Source: Escallonia rubra (taxonomy: Eukaryota; Streptophyta; Magnoliopsida; Escalloniales; Escalloniaceae). Taken from it: 64,000 nucleotides of DNA. The notes under the pieces were generated by a model. It made no database searches, was not told the DNA's origin, and saw nothing but the letters and a program-made list of their open reading frames with translations. Position 1 is the stretch's first letter; the number at the start of each line of letters is the position of its first letter. The stretch is from NCBI GenBank assembly GCA_033065855.1, contig JAVXUO010003142.1, positions 124,001 through 188,000 on the forward strand. The letters are read 5' to 3'. Positions 3,989 through 51,608 of this stretch are shown piece by piece. A program made the position numbers and the translations under genes.

Positions 3989-4103
3989 TCTTTCAGGGCT
4001 CGGTAGTAATTACCTTTACAAGGAAAGAGTGTGAAGTAGGTGGACTGATTTGTTCAGTTTGCCAATGATGGACTTGAATGGTGGTGCTTCGTAACAATTG
4101 GGC

Positions 4104-4905
4104 ATGGAGAAGCTCAATTACTCAGATTATCAGCATTGGAGAATTGCATGGAGGCTTATTTCCAAGGACAAGATCTCTGGGTGACTTCGCATGGAGGCTT
4201 ATTTGATGGAGGAGCCACCGAAGTAACCTCAAATACCCCTGAAAATGCAAAAGTTAGAAGGAAATGGAAGAACAAATGTGGGAAAACTTTCTTTTCCTTG
4301 CGAAGTTCTGTCCATAAGGATTTAATTGAGCATATCTGGGACAAAGAATCACCGAAGGATGTCTGGGATACGCTGGAAAAGCGTTTTACAAAGAACACCA
4401 CAAGGTTTAAAATATTGAGATTGAGCTAGTCACAACCGTCCAAGTAAGCATGACCATAGCTCAGTATTTCCAAGAAGGTGAAGAGCATATGCTCTGAAAT
4501 TTCAGAGTTGGATCCGCAGGAGAATATCATTGAAGCACGGCTGCGTCGCTATCCAGTTCGTGTTATAAAAAAGGAGTACATGCCCTTCTTGACATCCATT
4601 CAAGGATGGGCAAATCAGCGTTATATAGTTGAGCTGGAGAATCTGCTCACTAACTATGAGGCTCTGGGTATGCCAATGGTGAAGACTCCCATTTCCGAAA
4701 GAGACGAAGCCTTGTTTTCAGGAAATCGAATAAAGAGGTTTTAGAAAAAACTGGAATGGCTAGTTCTCAAAAGGGTGTGAGAAGAAAAGCCAAGAAGTAC
4801 AAAGAAAACGCTGAGAGAAATATCCGCATCAGGAGGGCTGGAAAAAAGTGAAATGTCTCCGTTGTGGCAATCTTGGACATAAATAAGTTTTGCCTGACCA
4901 AGAAT
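4104..4905 (+). pseudogene. Copia gag remnant
   Basis: Starts with MEKLNYSDY and continues with SPKDVWDTLEKRF, both typical of the copia gag (UBN2-type) domain. A zinc-knuckle stretch CLRCGNLGHK lies near 4,853-4,885. Broken in several places. Confidence 0.8.
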
Positions 4906-5053
4906 GTTGGTGGGTATTTTGGCATTTCGAAGATAGGTAATGAAGAATCAGCGGATGGTGTTTGAGATACGTGTCTCTCCTCAATGATAATTAATACATC
5001 GGAAGTACGAAAGAACCCGCTTTGACTTCTTTTGATGGAGCAACACTAGAGGA

Positions 5054-5310
5054 ATGTTTGGAATAATAGATTACAGGAAAGATTGGATACTCGATTCTAG
5101 TTGCTCTCACCATTTAAGCGGAGATGGATCCATTTATTCAATGCTGCAGGTGTACAGAGGAAATGATGCTATTGTAACAGCCAACAACTGTATACATCCT
5201 GTGGAAAATGAAGGAACGGTGAAGGTGAAGACCTCCGGCAGTGTTAGCTTGGATAGCATCTATCATGTGCCTGGTATAAAGAGGAATTTCCTTTCTGGCT
5301 CTCAATAACT
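5054..5310 (+). pseudogene. Copia protease remnant
   Basis: DWILDSSCSHHLSGD, followed by a block ending DSIYHVPGIKRNFLS, is the aspartic protease and the start of the linker to integrase in copia polyproteins. It lies directly downstream of gag, as expected. Confidence 0.85.
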
Positions 5311-5639
5311 CAGGAAGGTGTAATTTGGCCTCAGTGATGTTAGAATCTTGGAAAACATTAGAAGCCTTGATGCTGATCTTGTTTTGCGAGGAAAAAAAGT
5401 TAAATCTTTGTGTGTCTTATTCGCTAGTGATGCTTATGTAGAAAAGAGTAGCAGGCAAGGAAATGTGTTGTTGTGGCATGATCTTGTAGCTCATTTGAGT
5501 TATAAGAAACTGTAGGAGATTTCTGCACGCAATATGGTAAAAAGGATTCCCAATTTGGGGAACTTTCATCAAGAAATCGTATGTAAAGGATGTTGATAGG
5601 GAAAAGCACGTTACTTACCATTTGATCATTCTTCTATAA

Positions 5640-6330
5640 AAACTTTGGGAACTTTGGAGCTCATTCACTTGGATTTGCTGACCTGGCCAAGAACAAGATA
5701 TTGTGGTTGTCGCTATATGCTTGTCTTAGTTGACGATTACATCTTATTCACTTGGGTGTTTTTTATAAAGGAAAAATCCGAGACATGTGCATTATTCATG
5801 CTGTTCAAGAGGAAGATTGAGGGAGAGCTCCAACGAAAAATACAAGTATTTAGGACAAACAGTAGCGGAGAATACATGAATAACGATTTTGATGATCTCT
5901 GTGAAGAATATGGGATAAGAGGACAAATGTCATGTCCCGCAACATCGCAGCGAAATGGAGTTGTTGAGAGGAAGCTTCGACATTTGCGAGAAGTATGTAG
6001 AAGCTGGCTACATGTAAAGAGTCTACCTCAAGAATGATGGGCTGAAGCAATGCGATGTGCTTGCCATGCTGTAAATCGACTATTTTTAAAGGTAATCGAC
6101 ATGAAACTCCACATGAATTTTTTTATGAAGAGAAGCCTTCGCTTGCACACTTCAGATTTTTGGCTCGGTGTGCTATGTGCATATTTGAGATCAATTGAAA
6201 AAAATGGATGCAAAGGCTAAGAAGTGTGTTGGTGGGATACAATCCAAATAATAAAGGATGGCGATGCATGGATCCAGAAATGCACAAGGGTGTGGCATCA
6301 TGAGATGTTATTTTTAGTGAAATTCCATTA
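5640..6330 (+). pseudogene. Copia integrase remnant
   Basis: The core domain shows LELIHLDLLTWP, a VDDYILFTWVFF strand, NGVVERKLRHL and a later KKCVLVGYNPNNKGW-like block. These are the standard integrase core and GKGY-type tail landmarks. Broken in several places. Confidence 0.85.
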
Positions 6331-6464
6331 TATGCGCAACATGTTTTTTTAATCCTATTCCATCATGTTTTGGTGACAAAGAAGTGAAAGGCCTGTACAA
6401 CTCATGTCCTCCAACCCTTCCAAAAGAAGTGTCATGTCAGTCTTCACTTATGGCTAAACATATT

Positions 6465-7495
6465 TGGGGTTAATTACACTCAGGTCCCCAAGGTCAGGGT
6501 GAAGTTATAGTCAAGGACACAAAGTTTGGAAAGGTAAGAGATCGTGACCAATAACTTTGAAAAGGTATCAGCCGCATCAGTTCGTGGCTGACCCGTTAAA
6601 AAGTGTATTTTTTGCTAATGTCATCAAACGTATTTTTAAAAAGTCAATAATACCCTTGTGCAGTATATACATTATGCAGTGTATACGTTCAAACCCTAAT
6701 TTTCAAATTACGTTTTGAAAATTATGGTCTTTTCCCGCTGTTACAAACCACTATCATCGTCACACATCACTTAACTTACCGCCCGGCGCCGTCGCATCTG
6801 CTACCACTTATGTAACATGGATTCGGTACGAGTGTCCGTGTCGGATATGTGTCCAGGCGTTGGATTTGCATTAAGATATGAAGGCATCTTATTCCACAAC
6901 AACAAAAGCACTTTTTCACTCTTTCATATACTAGGGGATTTCGCTTGCTATCTAATGAATGAGGAGTCTGCTTTAAAGTGTTCGCCCTGCACTCCCCCCC
7001 TGAGTATATGCTTCAAGATGAATCACACAAGGGTAGTTCTAATTCTCAAAACCCAAGATTATTTTTCAGTTTTTCTCAAGGTAAAATGGTAATATACATG
7101 ATGCTTGTGTTAGTTAAATACTTATCTCATCTCAAAGCAGCAAAGAAGTAAGAGAAACACTGTACCATAGCGCTCTTAGTAGCATATCCTATGAGATATG
7201 TCGGACACATATGCCTTACCCATGCTCAAGTGTCGAGTGTCCGACAGGATAGTGCATGCATTTTGAAGAGTCCATGGAACATAGGCTCCACCACTGTTTG
7301 CCTTTATCAGCCATTGCCATGCCTATCAGCATTGTGATGGTTGTGATGCGGAGAAATGGTGGGTGAAAGGGGAGGGGATAGAGGGGAATGGGGAGCGAGA
7401 GGTCACAGCAGCAGTGGCGGTGGCGGGAGAACGAACCGAGAAACATCCAACCAATTTCATGCAAGTGGATATATTGGATAAAGCGGAAGGCTGAT
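6465..7495. mobile_element. Unclassified insertion between copia integrase and reverse transcriptase
   Basis: About 1 kb without copia homology separates the integrase tail from the reverse transcriptase block. The left end has a GGTTAATTACACTCAGGTCC stretch resembling the ends of plant MULE-type elements such as the one at 19,847. An internal part (about 6,812-7,250) begins and ends with GTGTCCG/CGGACAC-rich sequence like that of the insertion at 8,505. It is probably one or two non-autonomous DNA elements. The boundaries are approximate and no target duplication was established. Confidence 0.45.
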
Positions 7496-7499
7496 GGCT

Positions 7500-8300
7500 C
7501 GATTTATAGATATTAAGCAAGGCTCATGGCTCGCAGATTTTCATAGAAGTTTGGTTTGGACTATGAAGAAACTTTTAGTTCAGTAGCAAAAATGTCATCA
7601 GTTTGTGTCATTATATCGTTAGCAGCCGTTGAAGGTTGGAAGCTTTGTTAACTTGATGTAAAGAATGCTTTTCTTTTGGAGAAAATTACCGAGAAACCTA
7701 TATGGAGCAGCCTCTTGGATTAAAGTCCGGAGAATCCATTCCAAGTATGTCGACTTAAGAAAGCTACGGCTTTAAGCAAGAGCCGCGAGCATGGTATGGA
7801 AAGATCGCTCAAAATTTAACATTATGTGGTTCTATTTCGTTTAGTCTTAATGTGAGCCTATTTGCAAAGACAGACAGAAATCTCCATGTTCTAGTCTTGC
7901 TGTTTGTTGATGACATGATAGTCATGGGTAATGACGAGGAAGACGTCACCAGACTTGGAGAAGAGCTTGCCCATCGTTTTGAGATGAGAAATCTTGGACA
8001 GCTTCAACTTTTCCTTGGGTTAAAAATCTTTGACAGCTTAAAAGAATAAGGACGGCATCTTTCTTTCACAAATACACTATGCACAAAAGGTCCTTGAGAG
8101 GTTCAAAATGGCAGATTGCAAACCACTATCTACATCAATGGAGCATAATCTGAAATCAAAGGCTGTTGAAGGAAAAAGAGTCGAAGGATGCTCATGCCTA
8201 TCATGTGTTAATCGGGAGTTTGTCTGTTGGACTGTAACAAGACCTGATCTATCGTTTTTGGGTAGTATAGTCAATTTTTACAGAGACCACAAAATCCTCA
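7500..8300 (+). pseudogene. Copia reverse transcriptase remnant
   Basis: LDYEETFSSVAKM marks the start of the domain. LLFVDDMIVMGND is the catalytic YVDD-type motif. The MRNLGQLQLFLGLKI block follows, as in other plant copia polyproteins. Broken in several places. Confidence 0.9.
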
Positions 8301-9731
8301 TCTTGATGCAGCAAAAAGGATACTTTCGTTATGTCAGTCATAAGCTAATTTATGGTTTGTTATACAAGAAGGATGTGGCATTTACTCTTAGTGGTTTCAC
8401 TGATACTGAATAGGCCGGCCGTCGTATATCAAGATGTTCTACTTGGGGTTATGTGTTTAACGTTGGATCTGCTGCCATTTCATGGTGTAGTAAGCTAAGA
8501 AGCACAGACCCTTCTTCTGGCTCGAGGTATGGTGTCCGACACCTACCATCACACGGACACCCCTCGAACACTTCCGGTCACGTGCCTCCTACACCTCTCA
8601 GCTGTGTCCAGTTTTTTTTTTTGTGTGGGTATATATTCATTATCGAATACCGTGTCAAACACCTTACACAGAAGTGTCAGACTCCTTATGCAGAATTCTG
8701 CAAAACCTGTGGGGCAGAACTGCAAATTTTAAACTTCATTTGAGGGTCATAATGGGATATTAGCGAAAATTGGGGTCACAAAACCCGTGGGTCAAAATTG
8801 CAAATCTTTACACTTAATTTGAGGGTCATAATGGGGTAGTAGAGAAAATTGGGGTTGTTTTATAAATCAAAACTAGGACAAACCCTAGTGGTAGATTGAA
8901 TTTTTACATTTTGTTCCAATTGACTTCTGCATAACAGTAATGTTGATGGGGCTCTTCGACGAAGTCAATATAACGTAGAACACGAATTCTCAATTGATGA
9001 GCGCGTGCGGGAAAGAGGTTGATGATGGAGGTCCAGAGAACAATAAACATGATGAAGCAATTGATGTTGATTCAATCTTCGTGGATGAAAGAGATGAAAG
9101 CTGTTTCTGTTTTTCTTTTGGCTTGTTCTTATGAGATTTATACTACCTTAGTTTATATAAGAACTTGGTTTCAAGAATGACTTTTACTTATGGTTATATG
9201 AGTTGGTGTTTTACTTTTTCTTGAAGGTGGAATGTGCTTGAAACTGCCCATTCATGAATATATATTAGGTACTTAGCGGTAACTTGCTGTTTCCAAAATT
9301 TGTTAAACTGGAAATTGTGGTGTCCCCGAAGGTGTCAGTGTTGGACGCGGTGTCCGTGTCCGTGCACATAGGTAGTAAGAAGCAAGTCACAGTACCCTAT
9401 CTAGCGCAGAGGCTAAGTATAATGCTGCTAGACTTGCAGCTCAAGAGTGTGCTTGGTTGAAAAGGCTATTAAAAGAGATATATGATCCATCGACGCACCA
9501 GTTCAGATATTTTTTGATAATTTCAGTTCTATTCGTATGGCTTCCAACCAGTTGTTCCATGCTAGAAGGAAACACATTGAGAGAAAAGGTGTTGGAAGAA
9601 GAAGGTGATCCTATCAAAGTGAACTGTAATGAGCAGCTCGCTGACATCTTCACTAAGGCTTTAGGTAAGGCAAAGTTGAATACTTTAGAGGACAGCTGGG
9701 GATTGTTGACTTGCACAAAGGGGGAGTCTTA
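8300..9731 (+). pseudogene. Copia RNase H remnant, split by an insertion
   Basis: The first block carries SAAISWCSKLRS. After the insertion at 8,505-9,375 the domain continues with RKHIE-like and QLADIFTKALGKAKL sequence, the usual C-terminus of copia polyproteins. The polypurine tract follows at once. Confidence 0.85.
8505..9375. mobile_element. 871-bp non-autonomous element with 9-bp target duplication
   Basis: TAAGAAGCA occurs at 8,496-8,504 and again at 9,376-9,384, on both sides of non-copia sequence inside the RNase H coding region. A 9-bp duplication suggests the Mutator superfamily. Near the left end (8,530-8,575) and at the right end (9,318-9,370) the sequence is rich in GTGTCCG/CGGACAC words in opposite orientations, but a clean terminal inverted repeat is not visible. 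Inside are two copies of an approximately 80-bp unit containing GAGGGTCATAATGGG (about 8,740 and 8,820). No gene is recognised. Confidence 0.6.
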
Positions 9732-18700: not shown

Positions 18701-21700
18701 ACTTTGCTAACGTCTACCTGTTACGGACACGGAAAAGTAGGAGATGCATTACTTAATTACTTCTGCATAAAATTTGTTGCTGGGTTCACATTCAATACAT
18801 ATTAAAGACTGCAATTCTACTCTATCGAGATTGAGAGAAAATTTTGGTGTCAATTTGCTAGAAGTTATTACTGTTAAAAATTACTACTTCACTCGTTTAA
18901 GGCTTTTCAGTCTAACATTTCAACTGATAAAATCCATAACTTGTGGGACTGGATATTGGGAAACTAGGAGATAACTTGCTCATAGGATTAGCCAGTGATG
19001 CTGATGATAACTTTGGAAAAGATAAAAGAGAAGGATACATCTCTGAGACGGCGGATGTAGCACTAATACAACGTCAATATGTTTGATATAGATGGTTTGG
19101 ACCTATACAAGGTAGACTCGAAATAATACTACATGTACAAATCTTATACTCCATTACAGAATTACTACATTTACTTGCATACACATTTTTACTAAATGAT
19201 TTTTACTACATGTACACATATTACTACATTTACTTGCTTGCATACACACAATTTGCTTACATAATAATAAGAAATTACCACAATTCAAATCTTTACTTTG
19301 AATAACAAGAAGTTGGGAAAGAGAAAGAAAAAAAAAAAGGGGGCCCGGCCCTAAATATTGGGCCTAGGGCCAGGGCTTGGACTGGGCCTATATATCCCAG
19401 AAATCTGGCCTGGCCCGTTTTCCTCCCCTCTGGCCCGGCCCTGGCCTGGCCCAAGCCCGGCCCATTGACATCTCTACTTATCCCGCTCTCAAACTTGCAG
19501 CATAAGGCCTTTTTTAACCTCACACAGAGACCAAAATCTCAATCCCTCCTCAAACTCTCCCGCCTTTGGTAGAGCAACCTTCTGATTAATATACATCCGT
19601 AGCCAATTCCAAGGAGGCAAGATATGCAAGTTCGTCAACTTCTTTATTCCCAACCCTCTACAATGGATAGGAGGAAGACGTTTTTGCCCACTTATATGGT
19701 AAATTAGCTTTTACGATTCTTGGCGTCATATTTACTTGAGCTAGCTTGTTATGTATGGATGGGAAATTTCCGTTTTGAAATATCCTATTTTTGCTGGCTT
19801 TCACGATTTTTATGTTGGGCACAAAAACCTGTCTCTACTTATTTAAGGGTTAATTACTCACGGCACCCCTGAGGTTTACCCTAAATTACACACGGACCCC
19901 CTATCTTTTGAAAATTACACTCCGCTCTCCCAGGTTTGTACCCGCATTTCACAAAGCCCCACAAAATTGACGGGGACCCTAACTCCGTCTAAAGATTCCC
20001 TGACACCTTACTTTTTTATTTTTTCATCCCCAAACTACCCTCCTTTCTTGAATAAAACCCCCCTTTCACCTTTAGGTTTTTCTTCTTCTTCTGTTATATC
20101 TTTTTTTTTTTTTTTTAACTTTTACCAACAGTGATGTTGTATAGCCAACAATGCATGTTGTACAACCAAAACTTCACACTGTACAACCAATAATGCAGGA
20201 ACAAATGGGGTTGATGGCTGCTCTCATTTCACATCACCATCCATCACCGCCGGCGACACCTTCCGACACACCTCCGGCGACATCCCAGTGACCATGCCGG
20301 CATCACCCACTGCCCTTGCGTATCTACTCATCACGCAGATCGACCACGCCGGCCTCTACCTCCCAACGAAAACCACCCACCCAAGACCCACACCGCCAGC
20401 AACACCCACTGTCCCTGCCAATCAACTATCCCCATCACCACGACCCACCACCACTGGCCACCACCTCCCCACGAAGATAAACTACGACCACCACAACCAC
20501 ACCGGGGAGCGATGGATGCTTCTTCTCCTCAGGGCCTTCCACACCATGGGCTCCGACGACAGCGCCACTTGGGCCTCCGCCACGGCCGACGAGTTTGCCC
20601 CTGTCCCCCGCGTCTGCCACCTCATCCTCGCCGTCTACGAGGAAGACCTCTGCAACCCACAGTTCCCCACGGCGGCTACCGCCTCAACCCCAACTGGGTC
20701 GTCAAGCGCGTCACCTACGAGCAGACCTCCGGCCACGCGCCGCGCTACCTAATCGACGTCGACCACGAACACCGCGAGATCGTACTCGCCATACGCGGCC
20801 TGAACCTAGTCAAAGAGAGCGATTACAAGCTCCTCCTCGACAACGCGCTTGGAATGCAGATGTTTGACGGCGGGTACGTTCATCACGGGCTGTTGAAATC
20901 CGCGATTTGGTTACTGAACCAGGAATCAAATACTTTAAAGCGGCTGTGGGTGGAAAACGGCTCGGATTATAAGATGGTGTTTGCGGGTCACTCGTTGGGG
21001 TCGGGCGTGGCCGCGCTGCTGACGGTGATTGTGGTGAACCATCGGAGCCCACGGTGTGGAAGGCCCTGAGGAGAAGAAGCATCCATCGCTGCTGCTGGTA
21101 GACGGCGATGGATGCTTCTTCTCCTCAGGAGCGCATACAATGTGTACTTATATACAAGGGCATAAATGTCTTTTTATGTCCAGCCGTTAACACCGTTAAA
21201 GAAAGTTAGATTTTAGGAGCGGAGTGTAATTTACAAAGATAGGCGGGTCCGTGTGTAATTTAGGGCAAACCTCAGGGGTGCCGTGAGTAATTAACCCCTT
21301 ATTTAACTGTTTACATCGGTGTTTAATTATGATTTTATTGCAACTAAAGTTATGTGGTCCTCTTTTGTCAGCTGAGTAGTTTACTGGGTGATACTTTGAT
21401 CTAGAGTATGAATAACCACTCGCTAAAATGTCTTTATTATGGTTAATAGTATTTGGTTACATCTGGGCCCAAATTGAAATTTCATGCAAGAGAGCACGAG
21501 CACTTTTTTGCACTGTTGAAAATGCGGCCTCACTCACGTCTAGTGGGTTTTTGTATATTTGACCAGGCATCATCTGGAAATGCAGTTTCTGGGAGCATTG
21601 CAGGCCCTCATGTAGTACCAACACGATCTGTCCCTCGGCCAATGCATATGGGTGGTATGCAAAGGATGCAACCTCAGGGAATGACAGCTTATAATCTCGC

Positions 21701-25526: not shown

Positions 25527-25548
25527 ATATATATATATATATATATAT
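25527..25548. repeat. (TA)n microsatellite, left flank of the next element
   Basis: AT dinucleotides directly abut the left terminus of the long-TIR element. A matching TA run abuts its right terminus at 26,867-26,883. Confidence 0.95.
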
Positions 25549-26866
25549 GGGAGCTGATCCATTGCTGACGTTGGCAACTTGGGTTAAGTTGCCAGCGCGA
25601 TCTGGCCGTCCACGCGCGATCTGTGGACGGTCCAGATCTTTTTTTTGCGTTTTTTTAAACTCCGTCCGCCAGATAATGTAGCGGACAGTACTTTTGACAA
25701 AATTGTCCCTGACCCCGCAAAGAAGGAAAGAATAGTCTGCCCCTGACCCCGCAAAGAAGGAAAGAACAGTCTGCATAGTTGTTCGCTACATTATGTAGCG
25801 GACGACTGTATTGCATTTGCCTTTTCCATCTCAGTCTCCTTCGCTCTCTCTAGCAACAGGGACAATCCAAACCACAACAATCTGATCGTCGCCTTCGCCG
25901 CCGCCGCCACCAACCCCCACAACCAATCGAACTGCTATTGCCCACCCACCATTAAATTGCCATCACCCTGCAACCACAATCCAATCGCCCATGCTCCCAA
26001 TCGCCACCAGCTAAACTGCCGCCGCACCCAACCACCATCGTCCAAACTGTCGCCACCAATTTTGCACTCAAATCCATTACAACCCACCCTATTTGCCATT
26101 TGGCAATAGGGACAAGAACAATGAAAAAGGAAGAAAAAATGGAAGTTGAAGAAGAAGAAGCATCATTCATTGAATTATGTGATTTTTTTTTCATCAAATC
26201 TGGTGGGCGGTGGTGCTTGGGTTGGTGGCGGTGGCGGCGGCGGCCAGAGAGGAGAGAGAGAGAGCCTCAGGGACTCAAACCCATCAGATCTGGTGCTGTA
26301 TTGTGGCACTTCGCTATTATCTACTTCATGTATCTCAGAACCTTTCTGCCTTTGGATCCGGAAGAAGAAGATGGAGTCATGAATGCTTGAGCAATTATGG
26401 TGTCGAGAAACAAAATCTGAGAACAAGCTGAAAGCAACTTCGAGCTCCTCATCTTGGGTGTAACAGGTGGGTAACAATCTTCAATAAGCTGGCCTTGTTC
26501 AAGATCAAACCTAATGATGCAAAATGCAACAACCCACTGCCGCAAAGATTTTGGGTCAACCTTTGAGTTGGGCTCCGGCTTCAATGAAAATGATAGAACC
26601 GACCGATTTCCAAAGAAATCTGGGGAAAGAATATTGTGCCTGTACCATACATCTGCTACATAATGTAGCAGATGCACTGTACCATACTGTGCCTCTCATT
26701 AAGCAGAGGGTATTTTTGTCAAAAAATTGTCCCCTACATTATGTAGCGGACGTACTTAAAAAAAACGCAAAAAAAAGATTTGAACTGTCCACAGATCGGG
26801 TGTGGACGGCCAGATCGCGCTGGCAACTTAACTCAAATTGCCGGTGCGAGCAATGGATCAGTTCCC
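25549..26866. mobile_element. Long-TIR (MULE-like) element embedded in a TA microsatellite, with captured gene DNA, 1,318 bp
   Basis: Terminal inverted repeats of about 130-150 bp begin GGGAGCTGATCCATTGCT on the left and GGGAACTGATCCATTGCT on the right when read inward. They also share AAGTTGCCAGCGCGATCTGG and TTTTTTTGCGTTTTTTT. TA runs flank both ends, so any target duplication is hidden within the microsatellite. There is no transposase. The interior is G+C-rich on the left (proline/alanine-like low complexity, 25,860-26,100) and contains a host gene fragment on the minus strand. Rice Micron elements are a known precedent for insertion into (TA)n, but this element has long TIRs and may be a MULE. 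Confidence 0.8.
26295..26595 (-). pseudogene. Captured fragment of a DENND6-like gene
   Basis: Minus-strand blocks LRQWVVAFCIIRFDLEQGQL (about 26,545-26,485) and, in a neighbouring frame, TQDEELEVAFSLF and NCSSIHDSIFFFRIQRQKGS (about 26,460-26,350) match the N-terminal (uDENN) region of plant DENND6/FAM116-type proteins. Those act as guanine-nucleotide exchange factors for Rab GTPases in membrane traffic. A small deletion and frame change near the CYPP block separates the two parts. Only about 100 of several hundred residues are present, and no initiation site is obvious. It is a captured gene piece, not a functional gene. Confidence 0.7.
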
Positions 26867-27015
26867 TATATATATATATATATGTTGACAAAGGCAGTTG
26901 TTCCCATGATTGTATATACAAGTACTCGCAACATAGCACTCGCAAGTTCGTCAAGCCTCGCGTCCATGCGCGCGCGCACACACACACACACACATATATA
27001 TAGATATACACACAC

Positions 27016-27046
<31 letters not shown>

Positions 27047-27165
27047 CATATATGTATATACATATATATACAACCATGGGAACAACTGCCTTCGTGTGAA
27101 CAACTGCCTTTGTCAACTGATCCATTCTACTTGTATATACATATATATACGAGTATGGCAAAACA
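26867..27165. repeat. Microsatellite-rich segment with inverted repeats
   Basis: (TA)n at 26,867-26,883, (CA)n at about 26,970-26,993 and (TA)/(CATA) runs to 27,070. The segment starting TTGACAAAGGCAGTTGTTCC at 26,884 recurs inverted around 27,070-27,118, where part of it is doubled. Confidence 0.8.
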
Positions 27166-31780: not shown

Positions 31781-32439
31781 TGACACACGGTGGCCTTTGA
31801 TGGCACAAAGGAAACCATATGTGACACTCGACTTGCCTCTTGCAAGAAGAGTCCGCCAACAAATCTCAACAATCTATAGCAATCAGTGCATCAACATTGC
31901 ATAAAACAGTGCACAAAGAAGTAATTTCAACACAAGGGCAAAACGGTCTCAAATATTCTCATTACTTCAAAATCATCGTTACAACTTCAGAAGGCTTCGT
32001 TTGCATCCACAATGTGCAATCTAGCTAAACAGGCAAGCTAAAACAAAGCAAGGGACTCTCGGGTATAGGTGTACATGTACTCCCTATATAGTACCACTAA
32101 GAGGATTTTCCAAAGTGACAGTAGTAGACGTCACTATGTGCGAGGAGTCATAGTGCCCCTTTTTAGAGAAATACAACTCGGAATGACTTGAAATTTTACA
32201 GGGAAACTTAAATATATACAAGGGTGATCTCCACCAAAACTGAGCAAAAACGCACGCCCGGATCTTCAGATCTTCACGGTTGGCTTTTGACGTGCACGGG
32301 CACTACAGTTGGGTGCGCGGGCGCTGTGCTTGACGGGCGCATGGGCGCGAGACTTGAAGAACTTGTGAGGGCGCATGGGCGCATGTTGGATGGGCGCGGG
32401 GGCGCGGTGCTAGGCGGGTGCAAGGGGCAGCCCGTGACA
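31781..32439 (-). repeat. 3' LTR of the chromovirus
   Basis: 659 bp, TG...CA ends, near-identical to 37,182-37,856 apart from one 16-bp gap near the G+C-rich end. That end is rich in GGGCGC repeats. Confidence 0.95.
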
Positions 32440-32452
32440 TTCTCCCCCACTA
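32440..32452 (-). promoter_or_regulatory. Polypurine tract of the chromovirus
   Basis: On the minus strand GTGGGGGAGAA lies immediately before the 3' LTR, the expected primer site for plus-strand DNA synthesis. Confidence 0.8.
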
Positions 32453-32469
32453 GAGCTGTTGACGTCCTC

Positions 32470-32813
32470 GTCAACTTCTGCATGTGGTAGGCTTCAATCT
32501 TGTCGGTGTAGGCTGACAAGTCTGCTGCTCGTTCCCAAGTGTTCTCTTCGTCCATATATCCCTGCCACTTGACTAGGTACTCCTGATGGCGCTTGCGGGA
32601 TGCTGTAATCACTCTATCATTCAAGATAGCTTCAGCAACTCGCTTTCCTGCCGCTTTGGGTTTGAGTCCTGGTCTCCTGATTTGGCCCCTGGAGGGGTCT
32701 GCTGTGTCTTCATAGAATGGCTTCAACATGCTGACATGAAAAACGGGATGGAGCTGGCGGCTCCACCAATTTGGCGGATCAACTTTGTAAGCCATCTTGC
32801 CTATCTTCTTCAC
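32470..32813 (-). CDS. Chromovirus integrase C-terminus with chromodomain
   Basis: Contains the GKMAYKVDPP block and HPVFHVSMLKPFYED, typical of the end of gypsy integrase. It is followed by EYLVKWQGYMDEENTWERAA, a chromodomain with its aromatic cage positions. Chromodomains direct chromovirus integration to marked chromatin. Belongs to the same polyprotein region as 32,819-36,985. Confidence 0.92.
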
Positions 32814-32818
32814 TATAG

Positions 32819-35800
32819 TCAGGGTCCCTCATATTTCTGCAAAAGACGAGAGTCTCTTCCCCTTAGAAATTTGCGATCTTGTGGTAGTAGCTTAACCATA
32901 ACTTTGTCGCCCACGTTAAACTCCTGAGATCTCCTGTTCTTGTCAGCGTGTTTCTTCATTCTTATGGCTGTTTTCTCCAGGTAGGAGTGAGCTAGATCTA
33001 TATTCTGCCTCCATTCTTCGCTGAAGCTTATGGCCCTTAGAGATTTTCCTGCGTTGGGGACATTTACCGTGTGGGGAAGTAACGGTTGTTGTCCATTCAC
33101 AATCTCAAAAGCACTCTTCCCTGTCGAAGAGCTTTTGTGTGAGTTGAAACACAGTTGGGCAACGTCCAGTAGCTTGACCCAATTTTTCTGTGTTGCACTG
33201 ACAAAATGGCGGAGGTACTCTTCTAGCATGGAATTGAACCGCTCCGTCTGACCGTCTGATTCTGGATGATAACTTGAACTCATCGAAAGTTGGGATCCAA
33301 ATAACTTAAAGAGTTCAGTCCAAAAGTTTCCAGTGAAGCGGGAGTCCCGATCACTGACAATGTCTTGAGGCATGCCCCAATACTTCACCACATACTTAAA
33401 GAAAAGTTGCGCTGTGTCTTCGGCTGAGCAATACTTGGGTGTTGCGATAAAGCTCGCATACTTGCTAAACCGATCAACGACAACAAGAATCGTGCCTAAG
33501 TCTCCAACCTTCGGCAGACCAGTGATGAAATCCAACGACACACTCTCCCACGGTCTCTTGGCGATCGGCAGCGGTTGTAGTAACCCTGCTTTCTTCTTAC
33601 GCTCCACCTTGTCCTGCTGACAAGTAAGGCATGTCTTCACATACTCCTGCACTTCATCCCCCATTTGGGGCCAGTAGTAACCTTGTTGAAGGAGAGCTAA
33701 TGTTCTTTCTCCTCCGGCATGGCCTGCCCAAAGGGTGTCATGACATTCTCGAATCAATGTTCGTCTCAGATCATCAACTCTGGGGACGTATACCCGTCTT
33801 CCTTTGGTCATCAGCAAACCATCTTCTTGCCAAAACTGTCGAGTTTTACCACTCTCGATCAGTTTCAGTAGTTGTTGGGCAACCGGGTCCCTGGTAAGGG
33901 CCTTCTTGATCTTCTGTCCGATGTTGATGGCAACTCGACTGTCTGCTGTAACAATAGCATTCATGGCCATCAATGCTACCTGATTTAGTTCGGCTCTCCT
34001 GCTGAGGGCGTCTGCTACGCTGTTGGTTGAGCCGGCCCTGTACTCGAGCATGAAGTTGAATTCTGCCAGAAGTTCCTGCCACCTGGCCTGTTTCGAGGTG
34101 AGCTTAGATTGACTCAAGAAGTGGCTCACCGCAGTGTTGTCTGTCCGCACTATGAAGCTTGAACCAAGCAGGTAGTGCCTCCAAACTCTGAGACAATGCA
34201 CTACCGCGAGTAACTCTTTCTCATGAGTCGTGTAGCGACGTTCTGCTTCGTTGAGCTTCCTACTCTCATATGCCACCGGGTGGCATTCTTGCATTAGAAC
34301 CCCTCCAAGTGCAAAGTCAGAAGCGTCTGTATGAACTTCAAAAGACTTCGACACATTGGGGAGAGCAAGTACCGGATCTTCAGACATAGCCCGCTTCATG
34401 GCCAAGAAGGCCGATTCACATTCCTTGGACCATTCCCAAACTTTGCTCTTCTTCAGAAGTTCGGTTAGGGGATGGGCCATTCTCGAATAATCTCGAACAA
34501 ATTTCCTATAATAGTTGGCCAATCCTAGGAAAGATCTCAGTTCTGAAACATTGGTTGGCGGCTGCCACTCCTGTATCACTTGAACTTTAGCTGAGTCCAT
34601 CCTGATATGACCCTGTTCTATCACATGGCCCAAGAATTTAATCTTGGTCTGGGCAAATGTGCATTTCGACAGCTTCACATATAGCTCGTGCTCCCTCAGT
34701 CGGGTAAGCACCTTCCTCAAGTGCTTCAGATGCTCGTCCAAGCTGGAACTATAGATCACAATATCATCGAGATACACCACTACAAAATCATCAATGTAGT
34801 CCCGCAAAACCTGATTCATCAAGGTGCAAAATGTGGCCGGGGCGTTGGTCAAGCCGAACGGCATGACCAGGAACTCATACGCACCGTATCTGGTGACACA
34901 AGTTGTCTTCGCCTCATCACCTTGGGCGATTCGGACCTGCCAATACCCAGACTTCAAGTCCAACTTGATAAACATTCTCGCCCTACTAAGTTGATCAAAA
35001 CAATCGGCGACTAAAGGGATAGGATACTTGTTCCGAATAGTCACCTTGTTTAGCGCCCTGTAGTCCACACACATCCGCAAGGAACCATCTTGTTTCTTCT
35101 GGAAGAGGACTGGCGCACCATAAGGCGACTTCGCTGGAGTGATCAAACCTGCGTCTAGCAACTCTGTCAGTTGTTTTCTGAGTTCAGCAAGTTCTGGTTG
35201 TGACATCCGATACGGAGCTCGGGCGGGTGGCTTCGTGCCTGGCACAAGCTCGATCTCATGGTCAATTGCCCTTCTGGGTGGTAATTTCTTCGGCAATTCA
35301 TCAGGCATCACATCTTCAAAGTCGTTTAATATCACTTTAACTTCTTTGGGTAATGGTCCCGATACTTCTTCAATCTCGTCCCACCGTAGCATTGCAAGGT
35401 AGGTCGTTTCGTCCCGTTTTAATCCCTTTTTCAACTGGAGGGCTGAAATAGAACGCTCTCCCGCCCTAGTAGATACAGTCGGGATGACACACGGTTTACT
35501 CCCAAGCATGGCCAGAGAGTTGGTGCATGGCATCACGGTGGTCTTCGTGTCACGCAGAAACTCCAACCCAAGGATCAGCTTAAAGTCGTCCATGATGACT
35601 ACTGAAAAGTTGGTCCTTCCTTCGTATGGGCCAATCTTGATCAAAACAGATCTCGCTATTCCCGCTACTAGCTGTGCGGCAGAGTTGATAGCCTTCACCC
35701 GTCCGCACCCTTTTTCTAGAGTTAGACCCAGTCTTTCCACTTCGGTGCTTGAAATGTAATTATGGGTAGCTCCTGTGTCCACCATGGCCCTGATGGCCTT

Positions 35801-36985
35801 CCCGTTAACCTTGATGTCCACATACATCAAGCCTTTCCCTGGTACATCGCTCTTTTTCTTTGGCGGCATGTCTTTAGGCTTTTCTCCAGTTGAGCTCTCT
35901 TCGGGGTTCCCAACCTGCGTTGTCACAGCATTACACCACTGAGGAAAGGCCCCGACAGCATCTTCCTCCTCGTAATCTTGTGTGTCTGTTTGTTCCTCTG
36001 TTGGTGGATGCCTTGATTGAGAGCCAGATTGTTCCCCACGTTGCACCTGCCCCATGTTGTCAAAGAAGGCATTCATCATCTGTCGTTGCGGACAGTTAGC
36101 GATCACGTGCGGCCCTTGACACAAAAAGCAACCCCTGAAAGCAGGTTTCTTAACTTCTCCGCTAGTGCTAGCGTCAGGCTTGGCTTTGAACCCAACTCCA
36201 CTCTTCTGTAGGGTAGAAGAGTTTGACGCCCAACTGCTTTTACTGCCCCAACTTTGGTTTGGCGCTTGACCCCCTGGCTTCTTGCCACCATTACTCCTGT
36301 TTGGATTCCCTCTCTGAGGGGGTCTCTGTGGTTCGGAGTTATAATCTGAAAGGCTCTCGGCAGCGATGATGGCTTTGTTAAGGTTGTTCACCCGACGTCT
36401 ATTGAGCTCGGTGCGAGCCCATGGTTTTAACCCTTCCATGAAGAAGAAGAGTCTGTCGACTGCGGACATGTCGCTGATGTCCAACATCAAGGCAAAAAAT
36501 GCCTGGCAATATTCCCGGACCGATCCGGTGTTCTTGCATTCCAACAACGCTTTCCTCGCGTTGAATGCGGCGTTCTCTGGGAAAAACTGGCTCTTTAGCT
36601 CGCGTTTGAGTATTTCCCATGTGTTTATGACGCAAGACCCATCTTCGATCTCTGCGTACTTCTTCCGCCACCATAACTTGGCATCTCCAACCAAGTACAT
36701 GGCAGCCATCGACACCTTTGTCGCTTCCGAGTCAACTCTGATGGCTCGAAAGTATTGTTCTATATCGAAAAGGAAGTTTTCTAATTCCTTGGCGTCACGG
36801 GCTCCCCCGTAACTCTTGGGCTCTGGCACTCGTGGCCTCGATGAGTGCTCCACACCCCCTGCGGGTGTGTTAACCACTGCACGACTAAGAAGCTCCACTC
36901 GATCCTGGAGCTCTTGAAACTTGCCCTCCCAATCCATGGTCTCAGCATAGCGGGCATTATCAGTGGCTTCAACATTCACTTCCAA
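32819..36985 (-). CDS. Chromovirus gag-pol polyprotein
   Basis: A 1,388-codon open frame. In order: gag (about residues 1-330) with AELWW-like KLWWRKKY and a zinc-knuckle CFLCQGPHVIANC; aspartic protease (MVDTGATHNYIS); reverse transcriptase with FVVVYLDDIVIYS; RNase H (HTDASDFALGGVLMQ); and integrase with the H2C2 zinc finger (ECHDTLWAGHAGGERT to CLTCQQDK) and the core (LDFITGLPKV, DRDSRFTGNFW, SSYHPESDGQTERFN). The long intact frame and close LTRs suggest recent activity. Clade within the chromoviruses was not decided. Confidence 0.97.
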   Translation of the reverse strand: MEVNVEATDNARYAETMDWEGKFQELQDRVELLSRAVVNTPAGGVEHSSRPRVPEPKSYGGARDAKELENFLFDIEQYFRAIRVDSEATKVSMAAMYLVGDAKLWWRKKYAEIEDGSCVINTWEILKRELKSQFFPENAAFNARKALLECKNTGSVREYCQAFFALMLDISDMSAVDRLFFFMEGLKPWARTELNRRRVNNLNKAIIAAESLSDYNSEPQRPPQRGNPNRSNGGKKPGGQAPNQSWGSKSSWASNSSTLQKSGVGFKAKPDASTSGEVKKPAFRGCFLCQGPHVIANCPQRQMMNAFFDNMGQVQRGEQSGSQSRHPPTEEQTDTQDYEEEDAVGAFPQWCNAVTTQVGNPEESSTGEKPKDMPPKKKSDVPGKGLMYVDIKVNGKAIRAMVDTGATHNYISSTEVERLGLTLEKGCGRVKAINSAAQLVAGIARSVLIKIGPYEGRTNFSVVIMDDFKLILGLEFLRDTKTTVMPCTNSLAMLGSKPCVIPTVSTRAGERSISALQLKKGLKRDETTYLAMLRWDEIEEVSGPLPKEVKVILNDFEDVMPDELPKKLPPRRAIDHEIELVPGTKPPARAPYRMSQPELAELRKQLTELLDAGLITPAKSPYGAPVLFQKKQDGSLRMCVDYRALNKVTIRNKYPIPLVADCFDQLSRARMFIKLDLKSGYWQVRIAQGDEAKTTCVTRYGAYEFLVMPFGLTNAPATFCTLMNQVLRDYIDDFVVVYLDDIVIYSSSLDEHLKHLRKVLTRLREHELYVKLSKCTFAQTKIKFLGHVIEQGHIRMDSAKVQVIQEWQPPTNVSELRSFLGLANYYRKFVRDYSRMAHPLTELLKKSKVWEWSKECESAFLAMKRAMSEDPVLALPNVSKSFEVHTDASDFALGGVLMQECHPVAYESRKLNEAERRYTTHEKELLAVVHCLRVWRHYLLGSSFIVRTDNTAVSHFLSQSKLTSKQARWQELLAEFNFMLEYRAGSTNSVADALSRRAELNQVALMAMNAIVTADSRVAINIGQKIKKALTRDPVAQQLLKLIESGKTRQFWQEDGLLMTKGRRVYVPRVDDLRRTLIRECHDTLWAGHAGGERTLALLQQGYYWPQMGDEVQEYVKTCLTCQQDKVERKKKAGLLQPLPIAKRPWESVSLDFITGLPKVGDLGTILVVVDRFSKYASFIATPKYCSAEDTAQLFFKYVVKYWGMPQDIVSDRDSRFTGNFWTELFKLFGSQLSMSSSYHPESDGQTERFNSMLEEYLRHFVSATQKNWVKLLDVAQLCFNSHKSSSTGKSAFEIVNGQQPLLPHTVNVPNAGKSLRAISFSEEWRQNIDLAHSYLEKTAIRMKKHADKNRRSQEFNVGDKVMVKLLPQDRKFLRGRDSRLLQKYEGP

Positions 36986-37165
36986 CGCGTCCAGGCGAAG
37001 GGAGATTTGCTTCAGGATGCCTGGAGCATCCTCGTCGCACTTGCCAATGTGTTGTACCTATGCTTCCAAAGCATCGATTCTCTCTTTCGTGTTGGCCATA
37101 GTTTTTCTCAACAAACTATCCCACACTATTCTCTTAGCTGAAGCCACGGTCTTTTGGGACAACCG

Positions 37166-42539: not shown

Positions 42540-42960
42540 GGGTCGACCTCGGCGGCGGCCGAGGCACACCAAGGGGTCAAGGCCGATCGGCGTGGGCAAG
42601 GGGGTGGCGTAGGGGGTCGCGGCGTTGGTGGAAGAGGGGCGGCCAAGGCGAGGCGACCAAGTGGCCAAGGCCGAGGCCGCAGGTTGTTGCGGGTAAGGAG
42701 GAAAGGGGAAGGGGGAGGGGGAAAGGGGGAGGGGAGGAGGGGAACGAGAAGGAAGAGAAGGGGGAGGGGGAAGGGATGAGGGGGGAAGGGAGAAGGGAGA
42801 GGAAGGGAGAGAGGAGAGGAGGAGAATGAGGGATGAAGAAAGGGAGGAAAGAGAGAGAAGGAAGGAGGAATAGAGGGGGGAGAGGAAAAGAAGGAGAGAG
42901 GAAGAAGAAAGAAAAAGGAAGGGAAAAGAGGTCGCGGGCGTGGCGGGTGGCGAGGGGGCC
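42540..42960. repeat. Near-pure polypurine tract with G runs
   Basis: The plus strand from about 42,690 to 42,935 is almost only G and A, with many GGGG and GGGGG runs. The flanks (42,540-42,690 and 42,935-42,990) are GGCCGAGG-rich. The opposite strand gives Pro/Ser/Leu-rich open frames that are composition artefacts. Confidence 0.9.
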
Positions 42961-45084
42961 GAGGTTGCTTCGAGGGCCGAGGCCGGCGGTAGATCACGGG
43001 CGCGCGATTTTGGTTGTGTTGGAGCCAGGGGTGATGATGGTGGAGCGCAAAAGAAGTCGAGGAAGAAGCAAAGTGCACGACGTCGCGGCGGAGGGAGTGT
43101 GCATGCACAGTTATTGCGGGGCGACATGCTTGATGACGACGAGGACGCATCGGCGCCGGTTGATGCATCGGGTGTGCCTTTGGGTTTCGAGGATGGTGGA
43201 GTGAGGAGCTTTGATCAGACTCCGAGCCAAAGCAACACATTACTGACCGCGAAAGGGGCGGTGCCCGGGTGTCCACCCGAAGGGTTGTGGAGGGAGTTGG
43301 CACGACGGGTGTCTGCTGACGTGTTTTTGGCGCCTTGGAGCTCTGCATCGATGGGTGATGGCCCTATGGTTCCTTCACCATATGTCCATGTGCCGAGCTT
43401 CGATGTTGCTCCAGTGATGTCGCCGCGGTATGTACCGAGTTTGTTGGCTGAGCGAGAGGACATTCCGTGGTCACCTGTCATGTTCAAGGGTCACAATGCC
43501 ATGCCGGTTGGTTGGGGCTTCTGGTGCGTGTACATGTTGGGGCGCGAGGTTTGGAGAGAGAGGTTCGAGGCGCTTGGGCTAGCAGCGGCGGTGGAGGCGA
43601 TGTACAAGGGTGTCGATCCAGTCAGGGACATTAGCGGCCTCACACTGCTATTTTCGAGGTGGAGTTCACAGACTCATACTTTCATTAAAGAGTTCAGGGA
43701 GATTGGTCCGATGCTCCTGGACGTCGTGACATTGACCGGCCTACCGATGCACGGGACAGAGGATGCCCGCGTACTGAGGTTGACAGCGGATGAGCACCTG
43801 ACTGTCAAGGCGTTGATTGGTTTTCTGTCGGACACGAAGCTCAACCGCAAAGGCACGTATAGTCTGTGGGTTCAACACTTCTATGGCACAGTGGTCATGC
43901 GGCCCGGGCAGAGGGTGATGTCGGACGACGACTTCCATATGGGTCCTTCCTACAGGGATGAGAGATACGAGCTAGCTGCCTTCCTTGCCATGCTTCTTTC
44001 GAGGTACACCTTTCTGTTACTTCTATCCTTGCATTACTCGTATGCTGCATATCCATTGCTTTGTATATGTAGTATGTCGATCGCTATACTTAGAAAAAAA
44101 AAATTCATGCTTAAGAACAAAGAGGATTAGCGTAGCATGTTTCCATGTGTTGTACTGCATATTTTGCTTGGGTGGGGTGGTCATGATGGGTGTCGTATTT
44201 TCTATACTTGTAGGTTTGTGTTTGAGGGGACACCCGAGGATGGTATTTCCCAGAAGATCTTCCCGTTAGCGGTGCGGATGGCCACAGGCAACCGCGTTGG
44301 GTTGGCATCGACATACTTGGGCACTCTGTACTCACGTCTAGACCAGTTTACGAATGACATGCAGAGATCGTATGGGCGGTACCAGGTGTCGACCTACGTC
44401 GACTAGATGTTCTTACATAGATATCTGTTTGAGTGCTACATTGATTACATGCCTTTGGGATACCTGAAGGTACACCCCTCGTCAAGGAAGGGAATAATGA
44501 CACGTCTGGGGAAGTCCATGGTAGTATCGAAGTGGTACGCGGGAGGACGAGTTTATGCTTGCGCTGGCGGCAAGAGGCATGCATGCGAGTTATCACAGGT
44601 GTTCGATGTGCGAGACGCGTGCCTTAGCCGTCTGTACGTCAACATGCACTCTTCATACGGGACTCCTCCCTGGATGCATTTGCGGGACATCAGTTCACGG
44701 TTGCACAGCAGAGAAGACTTGATAGACCTTGAGGTATCCTTGCTAGTGGCCTTCTTCCCCGGATGGCTTCCGGTATTGACCGATGATGGCGGGAAGTCAG
44801 TCGTGTGCCAGTATTACGTTGCACGCTACAGCCCAGACCGCTTGTCCTTGTCCTTTGGCTATGATCTGGAGCCCCCCTGTGGTTATGCTCGACCTTGGAA
44901 TGTTGACACGCCCTTCCAGTATACCATGCTGAGGAAGACACGTTCGTGGCCGACACCGACGGACGAATGGAGGAGACCCGGTTCGTTGTCCACCGGAGTG
45001 GTCACAGTTGGGTATGCCCGCTGGTGGGAGAGAGTGCGGACTACGTGGTCTGAGTGGTTAGTGCAGGGGCCATCCAACAGGTAG
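42940..45084 (+). pseudogene. Antisense plant mobile domain (PMD) ORF of the Tat-type element
   Basis: Plus-strand blocks include MPVGWGFWCVYMLGREVW, FIKEFREIGPMLLDVVTLTG, GLPMHGTEDARVL, ELAAFLAMLLSR, EDGISQKIFPLAVRMATGN, LGTLYSRLDQFTNDMQRSYG and GVVTVGYARWWERVRTTW. This layout is that of the plant mobile domain (aminotransferase-like, MAIN/MAIL-related), found in a few host proteins and widely in transposons. An intron-like GT-AG gap lies at about 44,004-44,213. The upstream part is Arg/Gly-rich from the polypurine tract. Extra ORFs between pol and the 3' LTR, some antisense, are known in Tat-lineage elements. The copy is broken in a few places. Confidence 0.82.
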
Positions 45085-47199: not shown

Positions 47200-48690
47200 T
47201 TATGCATAATACTTCTTCAGATTGCGGCCGTTGATAGGTGTCGTGATTTGTCCGTCTTCCGTGTTGAGCAAGAGGTATGAGCCGTTGTCTCTGGCTTCAT
47301 GCACTTGAAGTGGTCCTTCCCAATTCGGTGTGAACTTGGGGGCTGACATGTTGGCGCGTACATGTTTGGCGGCTTGGAGAACAAGGTCGCCCTCGACGAA
47401 TGTTCGTTGCTTCACAGTCTTTCCATATGCATTGGTGAGTTGTTCGTGATACTTCTTCATATGGCGCAAGGCATTGGCTCTCATTTCATCAAGTCCTTCA
47501 AGGGCGATCATTCTGGTTTCTTCCTCCCCAAGCCCACTGCTAAGGGAGAGTCTGGCTGATGCGACCGCAATCTCGGCTGGTACCACACACTCGTCCCCAT
47601 AGACAAGGGAAAAGGGTGTGGCCTTTGTTGCTATGTGCTTGGAGGTTCTATAAGCCCAAAGTGCAAGGCTTAGCTTTTCGGACCATGAACCACTCGCATC
47701 ATGGACCATTCGTGGCAGTACCCGCAACAGAGTGTTGTTAGAAGCTTCAGCTTGACCATTCCCTTATGGGTAGTAAGGGTGGATGTAGCGTGGTTGATAT
47801 TATATCCTTCCATGAAAGCTCAGACATCCATGTTGATGAATGGCGTGCCGTTGTCAGATATGATACACCGGGGGATGCCAAAGCGACAGACGATGTGATC
47901 ACGCAAGAAGTTGGCAATGGCACCTCCCGTGGCTCTTCGCAGGGGTATAGCCTCGACCCACTTTGTGAAACGTTCCGTTGCGACCATAATCTAAGTGTGA
48001 CCCCGAGATGTTGGGTGGATGGGGTCTATGAGGTCGAGAGCCAAGGGCCAAGATCATGCGGAGGTCGGACGCCGGTGTGTGCATTCTGTCAGTGTGTCTC
48101 TGACAGGGTTGGCAGTGTCGGACATGAGAGATTGCGTCAGATTCCATAGTCGGCCAGTAGTACCCCAACCTTAGCAACTCCGCATACAGCTTCTGAGAGC
48201 CTTGATGCTCACCACAATCACCATTGTGTACTTCGTTAATCACCTCGACTGCTTGGGCACCCTGCAAGCGTCGCAGGGTGTGTCCCAAAAATCCCTTGCG
48301 AAACAACTCGCCTTCCGTCACGAAATACTTGGCCTACTTGCGCTTGATAGATCGTGCTGAGCTGCGATCAGGTGGTAGAACCCCGTGGGATAAATACTGG
48401 ATGAAAGGCTGGCGCCAGTCACCTTCGATGTCAATGACAAGAGCTTCTGCATTGTCCGATGCGTACAAGTACTCGGGACAGTCCTTTTGTATATCTAAGG
48501 CATACTTGGCCATGGATGGCCAATAGAGGCCCATACGCTGGAGGCGACGATATAGAGGGGGACCGCCGAGGCCACAACACTTCTGATGGCCAAGTCTAAG
48601 CTTATGCTTCGTTTCTTCTGGCGCCAAACATTTGGCTAGAGTGCCCCCGGGGCATCGCTTGTACAAGACATCCCCTAACATTAAGTAGTC
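47200..48690 (-). pseudogene. Integrase of Tat-type element A with two zinc-binding-like modules
   Basis: The C-terminal part (47,727-47,200) shows GSWSEKLSLALWAYRTSKH, ATPFSLVYGDECVVPAEI and PNWEGPLQVHEARDNGSYLL. Upstream are an H2C2 module with EVHNGDCGEHQGSQKL and HVRHCQPCQRH (about 48,220-48,090) and a second, similar module (48,681-48,480) with DVLYKRCPGGTLAKCLAPEE and LYWPSMAKYALDIQKDC. Broken in several places. Confidence 0.82.
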
Positions 48691-49802
48691 GTGAGAGTAG
48701 ATGCGAATGCAAGGGATGGTGCTTTAAGTTGGTCGATGATCGGCTGCCTCCAATCATCGGCGGTAGTGTCCCTCGGGATCAAGTTCAGGGCTATGCAAGG
48801 TTCGATCCTCTTGATGATAGTTAGCATTCGTTGTTCACCGTCGACCTCTATCTTCCACGTGATTGTGGCCAAGCTGTTCGCATGTCTGTTGTGGCACCTG
48901 TTGTGATGTTCATACTGGACATGGCCAAATCTTCCTTCCAAGTGTTGAACCAAGGCATGATAAGGTGCCAAGGCGGGCTCCTTGACTGCGAACTCCCCAT
49001 CAGCCTGCTTCATGATTAAGTTCGAGTCTCTTTTCACGCATAATGACTTAACCCCCATACTGGTAGCCAGCATAAGGCCAATGACAAGTGCCTCATACTC
49101 AACTTCATTGTTAGATACCGGGAACGCAAGCTTGAAGGATAGGGATGTGGTAACACCATCTGGATTTCGAAGGACTATGCTGGCACCCTCTTGCCGGATG
49201 AGAGCTCCATTGAGACTTTTGCTAGTGGCTGAGCCGTCGAACTCAAACGTCCATAATTCATCGATGTCGGAGATCAGGGTCATCTCCTCCCCAGGCAATT
49301 GATCTGAGGTTGGTTCATACTGTTGGCGTGGGAAGAAGGCCAAGAGGTCTGCAAGTGCTTGGCTCCATAGAGCTGTAGGATTCTTGATGGATAATCTGAA
49401 CTCGGCCAATAGTAGCAACCAACGGGTAAGTCGGCCAGATAGGGCAGGGCGTGTGAGCATGTATCGTAGTGGATCAGCCTTGGTGATAAGTGTGATCTGG
49501 TGCGACAAGAAGTAGTGTCTGAATTTCTACGAGGCGTAGACCAAGGCTAAACAGTGCTTCTCGAGCTTAGAGTAATTGGCTTCGGGTCCCCTGATTAACT
49601 GACTGAGGTAATAAACTGGGTGCTCCACCTCTTGGGCAAACAATGCCTCTATGGACCTGGGCGTGGAGGTCAGGTAAAACAAGAGCGGGATACCTCGTTG
49701 TGGCACGACCATGGTCTGTGGTGACATGAGGACCGCCTTGATCTGTTCGAATGCTTGTTGTTGGGGCGCACCCCAACTCCACGGTGCACTCTTGCGCGTC
49801 AA
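48681..49802 (-). pseudogene. RNase H plus second (aRNH) RNase H of Tat-type element A
   Basis: The first RNase H shows PLLFYLTSTPRSIEALFAQE, PVYYLSQLIRGPEANYSKLE and DPLRYMLTRPALSGRLTRW. The second starts WTFEFDGSATSKSLNGALI and has SNNEVEYEALVIGLMLATSM. The dual RNase H arrangement is diagnostic of the Tat lineage of plant Ty3/gypsy elements. Confidence 0.88.
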
Positions 49803-49994
49803 GTGCTAGAAGGGCGTGATAAGTTTGGCCAAGGCAGGGATGAATCGGTGGAGGTAAGAAACCTTGTCGAGGAAGCTCTTCAGCTGTTTGGTGCTCTTAG
49901 GAGGGGGCATCTCTTGGATGGAGGCGGCCTTAGAAGGGTCAACGTCGATGCCTTGTCGATTAACCAAGAAGTCGAGGAATTTTCAGGAGGAAAC

Positions 49995-50690: not shown

Positions 50691-50944
50691 TTCCTCTCTT
50701 CGGCCCGGGGCGAGTTTTGTGCCAATGTATGTTAGTCGAGGTTCCTCGCCCGGGTCAGGCAGGTTGATTTCTTCAAGATCTTTGGCCTGCGGTCGTGGGC
50801 CGTCTTCATAGCAAGGCGGGGCAGAGCCCGGGTAAGTTCAGGGTGTGGCGGGCAATGCTCGGCCGCGCAGCACCATTCAGTTTCCATGGGCGGGTCAGGG
50901 TCGAGGGGGTCAGATGACGGATCACCTGAAGCCCCCGCACACTG

Positions 50945-51600: not shown

Positions 51601-51608
51601 CCGTACCG

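Follow-up and report, generated by a model that had tools for sequence, protein, structure and literature searches.

The 1318-bp element at positions 25549–26866 of the window, the whole 64,000-nucleotide stretch of Escallonia rubra DNA analysed here, is a Pack-MULE-like member of a high-copy family aimed at TA microsatellites. Very probably it is a non-autonomous Mutator-like element that the transposase of this family guides into TA microsatellites, and it behaves as a Pack-MULE that lands in TA repeats. Pack-MULEs are recognized by MULE terminal inverted repeats (TIRs) around a host-gene fragment in the absence of a transposase, and this is the composition of the element.

The element and its target site

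The initial annotation had described a long-TIR element in a TA microsatellite, and its coordinates for the element are exact to the base. The TA runs that it had placed on both sides lie directly at the TIR ends, as (AT)11 on the left and a 17-bp run on the right. The element and its target comprise the following parts.

25527..25548: (AT)11 array on the left, belonging to the target
25549..25703, plus strand: left TIR
25664..25686: GTCCGCTACATTATGTAGCGGAC-like palindrome with 3 mismatches, within the left TIR
25704..25771, plus strand: subterminal pair of 34-bp repeats in tandem, 94% alike
25781..25803: subterminal copy of the GTCCGCTACATTATGTAGCGGAC-like palindrome, 1 mismatch
25805..26302: internal stretch, partly common to related elements L064–L068
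26303..26619, minus strand: captured DENND6-like fragment
26651..26673: subterminal palindrome, 5 mismatches to the GTCCGCTACATTATGTAGCGGAC-like motif
26712..26866, minus strand: right TIR
26729..26751: fourth GTCCGCTACATTATGTAGCGGAC-like palindrome, inside the right TIR, 1 mismatch
26867..26883: 17-bp TA array on the right, odd in phase relative to the left array

The TIRs begin with GGGAGCTGATCC and GGGAACTGATCC and are long and G-starting (GGGA), as the Mutator superfamily requires. They are identical at 132 of 154 positions (86%) with one gap; their lengths of 154/155 bp slightly exceed the 130–150 bp first proposed. The GTCCGCTACATTATGTAGCGGAC-like palindrome occurs four times in the element with up to five mismatches, twice in the TIRs and twice just inside them. 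When the first 142 bases of each TIR were folded as single-stranded DNA and compared with shuffles, z was -6.0 on the left (25549–25690) and -3.2 on the right, and two other stretches of the region gave -1.0 and +1.2. Both TIRs contain nested palindromes, from which the strong folding of the left one results. Reading of the six-frame translation found no transposase in the element, and no MULE transposase was seen among the 10 window frames scanned of the 34 with at least 150 aa.

Perfect TA runs of at least 16 bp number five in the window and cover 109 bp of the 64,000. Among 62,682 possible 1318-bp intervals, only one, which is this element, is touched at both edges by such a run. Just behind the right TA array, positions 26884–27117 hold a short imperfect inverted repeat (26 bp, 92%) that includes runs of CA and of TA and may be another element in that array.

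Copies in the genome and the phase of their flanks

The E. rubra genome itself (566 Mb, 3222 contigs) was searched for other copies. The left TIR gave at least 47 matches, with the best 40 of 2737 candidates scored, and the terminal 16-mer GGGAGCTGATCCNTTG gave 1572 + 1603 exact matches (3175) genome-wide, compared with 0 + 0 for the reversed control. Altogether 77 ends were examined around all 46 matches outside the window, at the two ends of the window copy and at those of neighbouring elements; they belong to the top TIR matches and adjacent elements and were not drawn at random. The initial annotation had proposed to ask whether copies consistently lie within (TA)n, and they do so at nearly all of these ends. 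Within 40 bp of the end, a perfect TA run of at least 12 bp touches 71 of the 77 ends and one of at least 8 bp touches 74, counts that are slightly inflated by duplicates (L010 is apparently the same as L009, and L041 is the same as L040). The ends with less than 8 bp of TA are one end of L021, where a longer array is interrupted, and both ends of L028.

It is very unlikely that the element is an ordinary Pack-MULE that is found in TA repeats without targeting them, because such sites are abundant or tolerated. In superfamily, size and gene capture it agrees with Pack-MULEs, L028 lies outside arrays with a plain 9-bp duplication, and L062, which carries the DENND6-like fragment, lacks arrays. 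However, 74 of the 77 ends touch a TA run of at least 8 bp, whereas perfect runs of at least 16 bp make up the 109 bases of the window given above, and later survival alone would need to remove nearly all other insertions.

The phase of the flanks bears on how copies enter the arrays. Within a TA array, a target duplication of odd length leaves equal bases to the left and right of the element, and one of even length leaves different bases. Facing pairs of ends (n = 32) span 1.0–2.2 kb, and 28 of them have intact GGG...CCC termini; L026, L037, L038 and L041 were dropped since outer bases are missing on one side. The phase is odd in 25 of the 28 intact pairs, at both A-phase and T-phase sites. 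The exceptions are L021 (interrupted), L040 and L028; the last is the sole intact pair outside arrays, where the phase rule is inapplicable, and it has an exact 9-bp duplication, TAGTATATA. The window copy shows a 9-bp flank match, TATATATAT, in an array that any odd length up to 17 fits. The phase thus supports a target duplication of odd length hidden inside the repeat, most simply of 9 bp, although phase alone cannot separate 9 from 7 or 11.

Odd phase fits the 9-bp cut of Mutator elements and not a 2-bp cut at TA. A Tc1/mariner or Stowaway-like origin, which the insertion at TA might bring to mind, has next to no probability. Its 2-bp TA duplication would give even phase, opposite to what most of the intact pairs display, and neither the linked MULE/FAR1/SWIM transposase nor the long palindromic TIRs fit such elements. 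This origin was rejected on flank phase and transposase type.

Entry into the arrays by homologous recombination of circular intermediates with microsatellite filler, with no staggered cut, is also unlikely. Recombination has been proposed, as a speculation, in PMC5907723, on the grounds that guayule flanks consist of diverse non-TA microsatellites and that flanks do not fit cut-and-paste. In E. rubra, many arrays occupy the full 40 bp measured, and additional TIR ends are joined by TA arrays beside the elements at L009, L010, L011, L017, L018, L030 and L034, both of which speak for recombination. However, filler of arbitrary length predicts no fixed phase and is hard to reconcile with the predominance of odd phase, and the exact duplication at L028, outside arrays, also stands against it. 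In one further arrangement (C85:60775-60812), two ends point in opposite directions, and only 6 bases separate their terminal 16-mers.

The initial annotation had held that copies in random sequence with ordinary 9-bp duplications would make the element a plain Pack-MULE. Such a site exists in one of the 28 intact pairs, L028. This copy argues for membership of the MULEs and not against TA targeting.

Transposase-bearing relatives

MULE transposase domains are abundant in the genome, with at least 150 found (150 scored of 3309 candidates). Pairing with family ends was examined for the 17 MULE hits on contigs below C131, where the list of exact ends is complete. By coordinates, 8 of the 17 have a facing end within 9 kb, 5 of the 17 have both ends, with spans of 7,078–9,597 bp, and 9 have none. 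Seven of those eight hits are 783-codon open frames and one is a 577-codon frame, all with the same score. For all eight, the link is by coordinates and concerns the MULE domain.

One long element was read through. The two ends of this element of about 9.15 kb (C131:522113-531264; L071:914-7301 and L074:1-2864) agree at 97.6% over 253 bp; a TA array borders each of them, and the left end lacks its outermost bases. Its transposase frame matches MULE (1.6e-33), FAR1 (4e-13) and SWIM (5e-5), and frames on the opposite strand match a plant mobile domain (PMD, E 4.6e-50) and the Ulp1-like Peptidase_C48 (2.2e-6, and 4.1e-4 at the cut-off). A second long copy (L069, L070) has an end that adjoins (TA)12 and the same transposase domains, and it has more than 6 kb in common with the first at 89–94%; its other end was not found within the stretch fetched. 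The TIRs of both long elements are 72–78% like those of the window copy over about 100–150 bp. Among neighbours in TA clusters, three of five are about 91% alike to the TIR of the long element and two are 80–82% alike.

The question raised at the outset, whether a long copy encodes a transposase, is thus answered by a FAR1/MULE/SWIM frame between related ends. Membership of Mutator follows from this MULE-type transposase between ends of the same TIR family, albeit of a related TIR subtype. The partner family is clear, and a closer transposase source for the subtype of the window may exist. Not every MULE transposase of the genome is a member of the family: L072 and L073, which differ in sequence, are without ends or palindromes in the fetched stretches. 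In the window, two frames at 42877–45081 match the plant mobile domain, one at E 1.6e-10 and the other, which falls below the cut-off, at 0.0069; this region may be what remains of another long element of this kind, or a MAIN-like gene.

In the mechanism proposed here, the transposase from the long relatives would bind the long palindrome-bearing TIRs, excise the element and join it to a staggered cut inside (TA)n. The odd duplication favoured by the phase, most simply of 9 bp, would then disappear from view in the repeat.

Captured gene fragments and comparison with known systems

The captured fragment at window 26303–26619 (minus strand) matches part of a donor in the same genome, L063, with 94% identity over 322 bp. 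The donor is an uninterrupted 531-codon frame in which MSRSLSFSLKPEP comes after four codons, and it has no TIR match. The captured piece comprises about 10 bp upstream of the ATG and the first part of the coding frame, with two small gaps relative to the donor. No donor intron falls within the captured stretch, so a DNA source and an RNA source are not distinguishable. The DENND6 frame is broken in the window copy and lies within a 169-codon open frame in L062.

The capture announced by the initial annotation is thus real and has a donor. The exact name DENND6 for fragment and donor is presumed from a likeness to plant DENND6 proteins; a literature search listed no title on a plant DENND6. 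In profile searches, the two halves of the fragment joined with X matched Afi1 (E 0.061) and an unrelated family of glycosyltransferases (E 0.13), and one of nine shuffles matched an unrelated family at 0.075. The donor frame matched Avl9 at E 1.7e-4 with 20.7 bits, which is under the Pfam cut-off of 22. Pfam gave no match to the two separate halves, and the Protein Data Bank gave none to one half or to the joined pieces. DENND6, AVL9 and Afi1p are grouped as DENN-like in the account of PMC3570213, and the profiles weakly support the label DENND6.

Five elements carry the fragment, namely the window copy, L062, L064, L065 and L066. The right boundary, L063:4783, lies about 10 bp ahead of the ATG and is common to all five (the BLAST match of L066 stops at 4777). 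The other boundary, 4462, is common to the window copy and L064–L066, and L062 extends to 4384. All five carriers differ from the donor in the same three places, two of them within the first six aligned bases, and all three differences could be changes in the donor. Two further differences are common to the window copy and L064–L066, and three more with one deletion to L064–L066; two sites conflict with the tree. These comparisons support one capture, in which an ancestor of the window copy probably acquired the 5' end of a DENND6-like gene, followed by transposition into at least five copies with further rearrangement. TA arrays were found on both sides of the window copy, L065 and L066 and on one side of L064, whose second end was not found. 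L062, which is outside the 77 ends, has AT-rich flanks with no array or visible duplication.

Other gene pieces are carried by the family. The 35 fetched elements and the window copy fall into 12 groups by internal sequence, and 52 frames of at least 85 codons from 12 representatives were scanned, with matches kept at E 0.001 or better. Matches were obtained to DUF761 (L062), PPR families (L039) and LRR families (L065); the LRR matches are to one member each, and they were placed in L065 by inspection of the frame. L062 and L065 seem to carry pieces of two genes each. In all, a donor is identified for one of the captured pieces, and other frames in the family resemble three more gene families.

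Reports exist on several related systems. MuTAnT of Medicago truncatula is described in PMC4486113 as a Mutator-like family at (TA)n sites whose foldback TIRs are modular and measure 144 bp in the type copy and 47 bp on average, and in which 14 of 218 copies are not in perfect (TA)n and have 9-bp duplications there. The same report describes variable loss of the outermost G/C bases and a putative autonomous copy, mudrA-like and 4873 bp long, that has a single ORF. The likeness of MuTAnT, as that of SaTar/Micron, was judged by the published descriptions. In contrast to the 1.0–2.2 kb of the facing pairs, 90% of MuTAnT copies measure 200–300 bp, and its text speaks of no gene capture (PMC4486113); the long element read through in E. 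rubra, of about 9.15 kb, has added PMD and Ulp1-like frames. SaTars of guayule, rice, sorghum and citrus, with Micron as rSaTar2, are presented in PMC5907723 as long-TIR non-autonomous MULEs of 0.4–1.9 kb in microsatellites, with clusters joined by microsatellite arrays, related autonomous MULEs, and Micron TIRs that match an autonomous MULE. However, three rice SaTars are classed there as non-Pack-MULEs, the main text has no wording on capture, and guayule copies outside microsatellites have 10-bp (even) duplications, unlike the odd phase in E. rubra. The Ac-mMITEs of pineapple (PMC8449440) resemble the present family in high copy number, TA arrays, 9/10-bp duplications elsewhere and clusters; they are MITEs for which the authors found no autonomous element, and the main text has no wording on capture.

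Abermu of barley is reported in PMC9168764 to have GGG...CCC ends, TIRs of 138–145 bp, mostly 9-bp duplications and a large autonomous element with an opposite-strand ORF, as in E. rubra. It differs in a preference for TA-rich sites and not arrays, and in that its opposite-strand ORF is said there to lack similarity between distant plants, in contrast to the PMD and Ulp1-like frames found here. Ulp1 domains are known in MULEs (PMC13317346). Accounts of Pack-MULEs (PMC3310237, PMC8903248, PMC13317346) describe gene fragments between MULE TIRs, several genes per element and later amplification. Two of these three search by plain target duplications, the methods of PMC3310237 using plain flanking duplications of 9–11 bp for such surveys, and the word 'microsatellite' occurs in none of the three main texts.

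The initial annotation knew of no TA-targeting elements with such TIRs, a view not supported by the descriptions of MuTAnT (PMC4486113) and Micron/SaTar (PMC5907723). Its suggestion of a distinct TA-targeting, gene-capturing family is supported as to TA sites and captures and not as to the novelty of long-TIR TA targeting. Both properties are known in kind in MULEs, and their combination is new as far as the literature search goes: no description of a TA-array-targeting MULE family that captures genes was found among the open-licence PMC papers listed or read, and subscription literature could contain one.

The chances are about even that an entire MULE lineage has combined the use of TA microsatellites as a safe haven with routine exon capture, in which case the odd phase would also mean that microsatellite-targeting MULEs make an ordinary staggered cut and do not rely on recombination. 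If so, the lineage could repeatedly move gene pieces into TA arrays, and surveys that demand plain duplications would likely miss it. TA targeting may also be a reason why Pack-MULEs have been missed where genomes have many TA repeats. The phase of TA arrays also offers a simple test of how elements enter microsatellites; it needs no unique flank and is usable on any TA-targeting family.

Elsewhere in the window, at 19847–21297, inverted repeats of 82 bp that are 95% alike surround GC-rich DNA that contains a fragment of Lipase_3 (E 3.7e-15); this may be a further element that carries a gene. Remnants of Copia-like and Gypsy-like retrotransposons occupy 4049–9729, 32274–37057 and 47200–52355, the first two recognized by inspection of their frames and the last by RVT_1, RVT_3 and protease matches.
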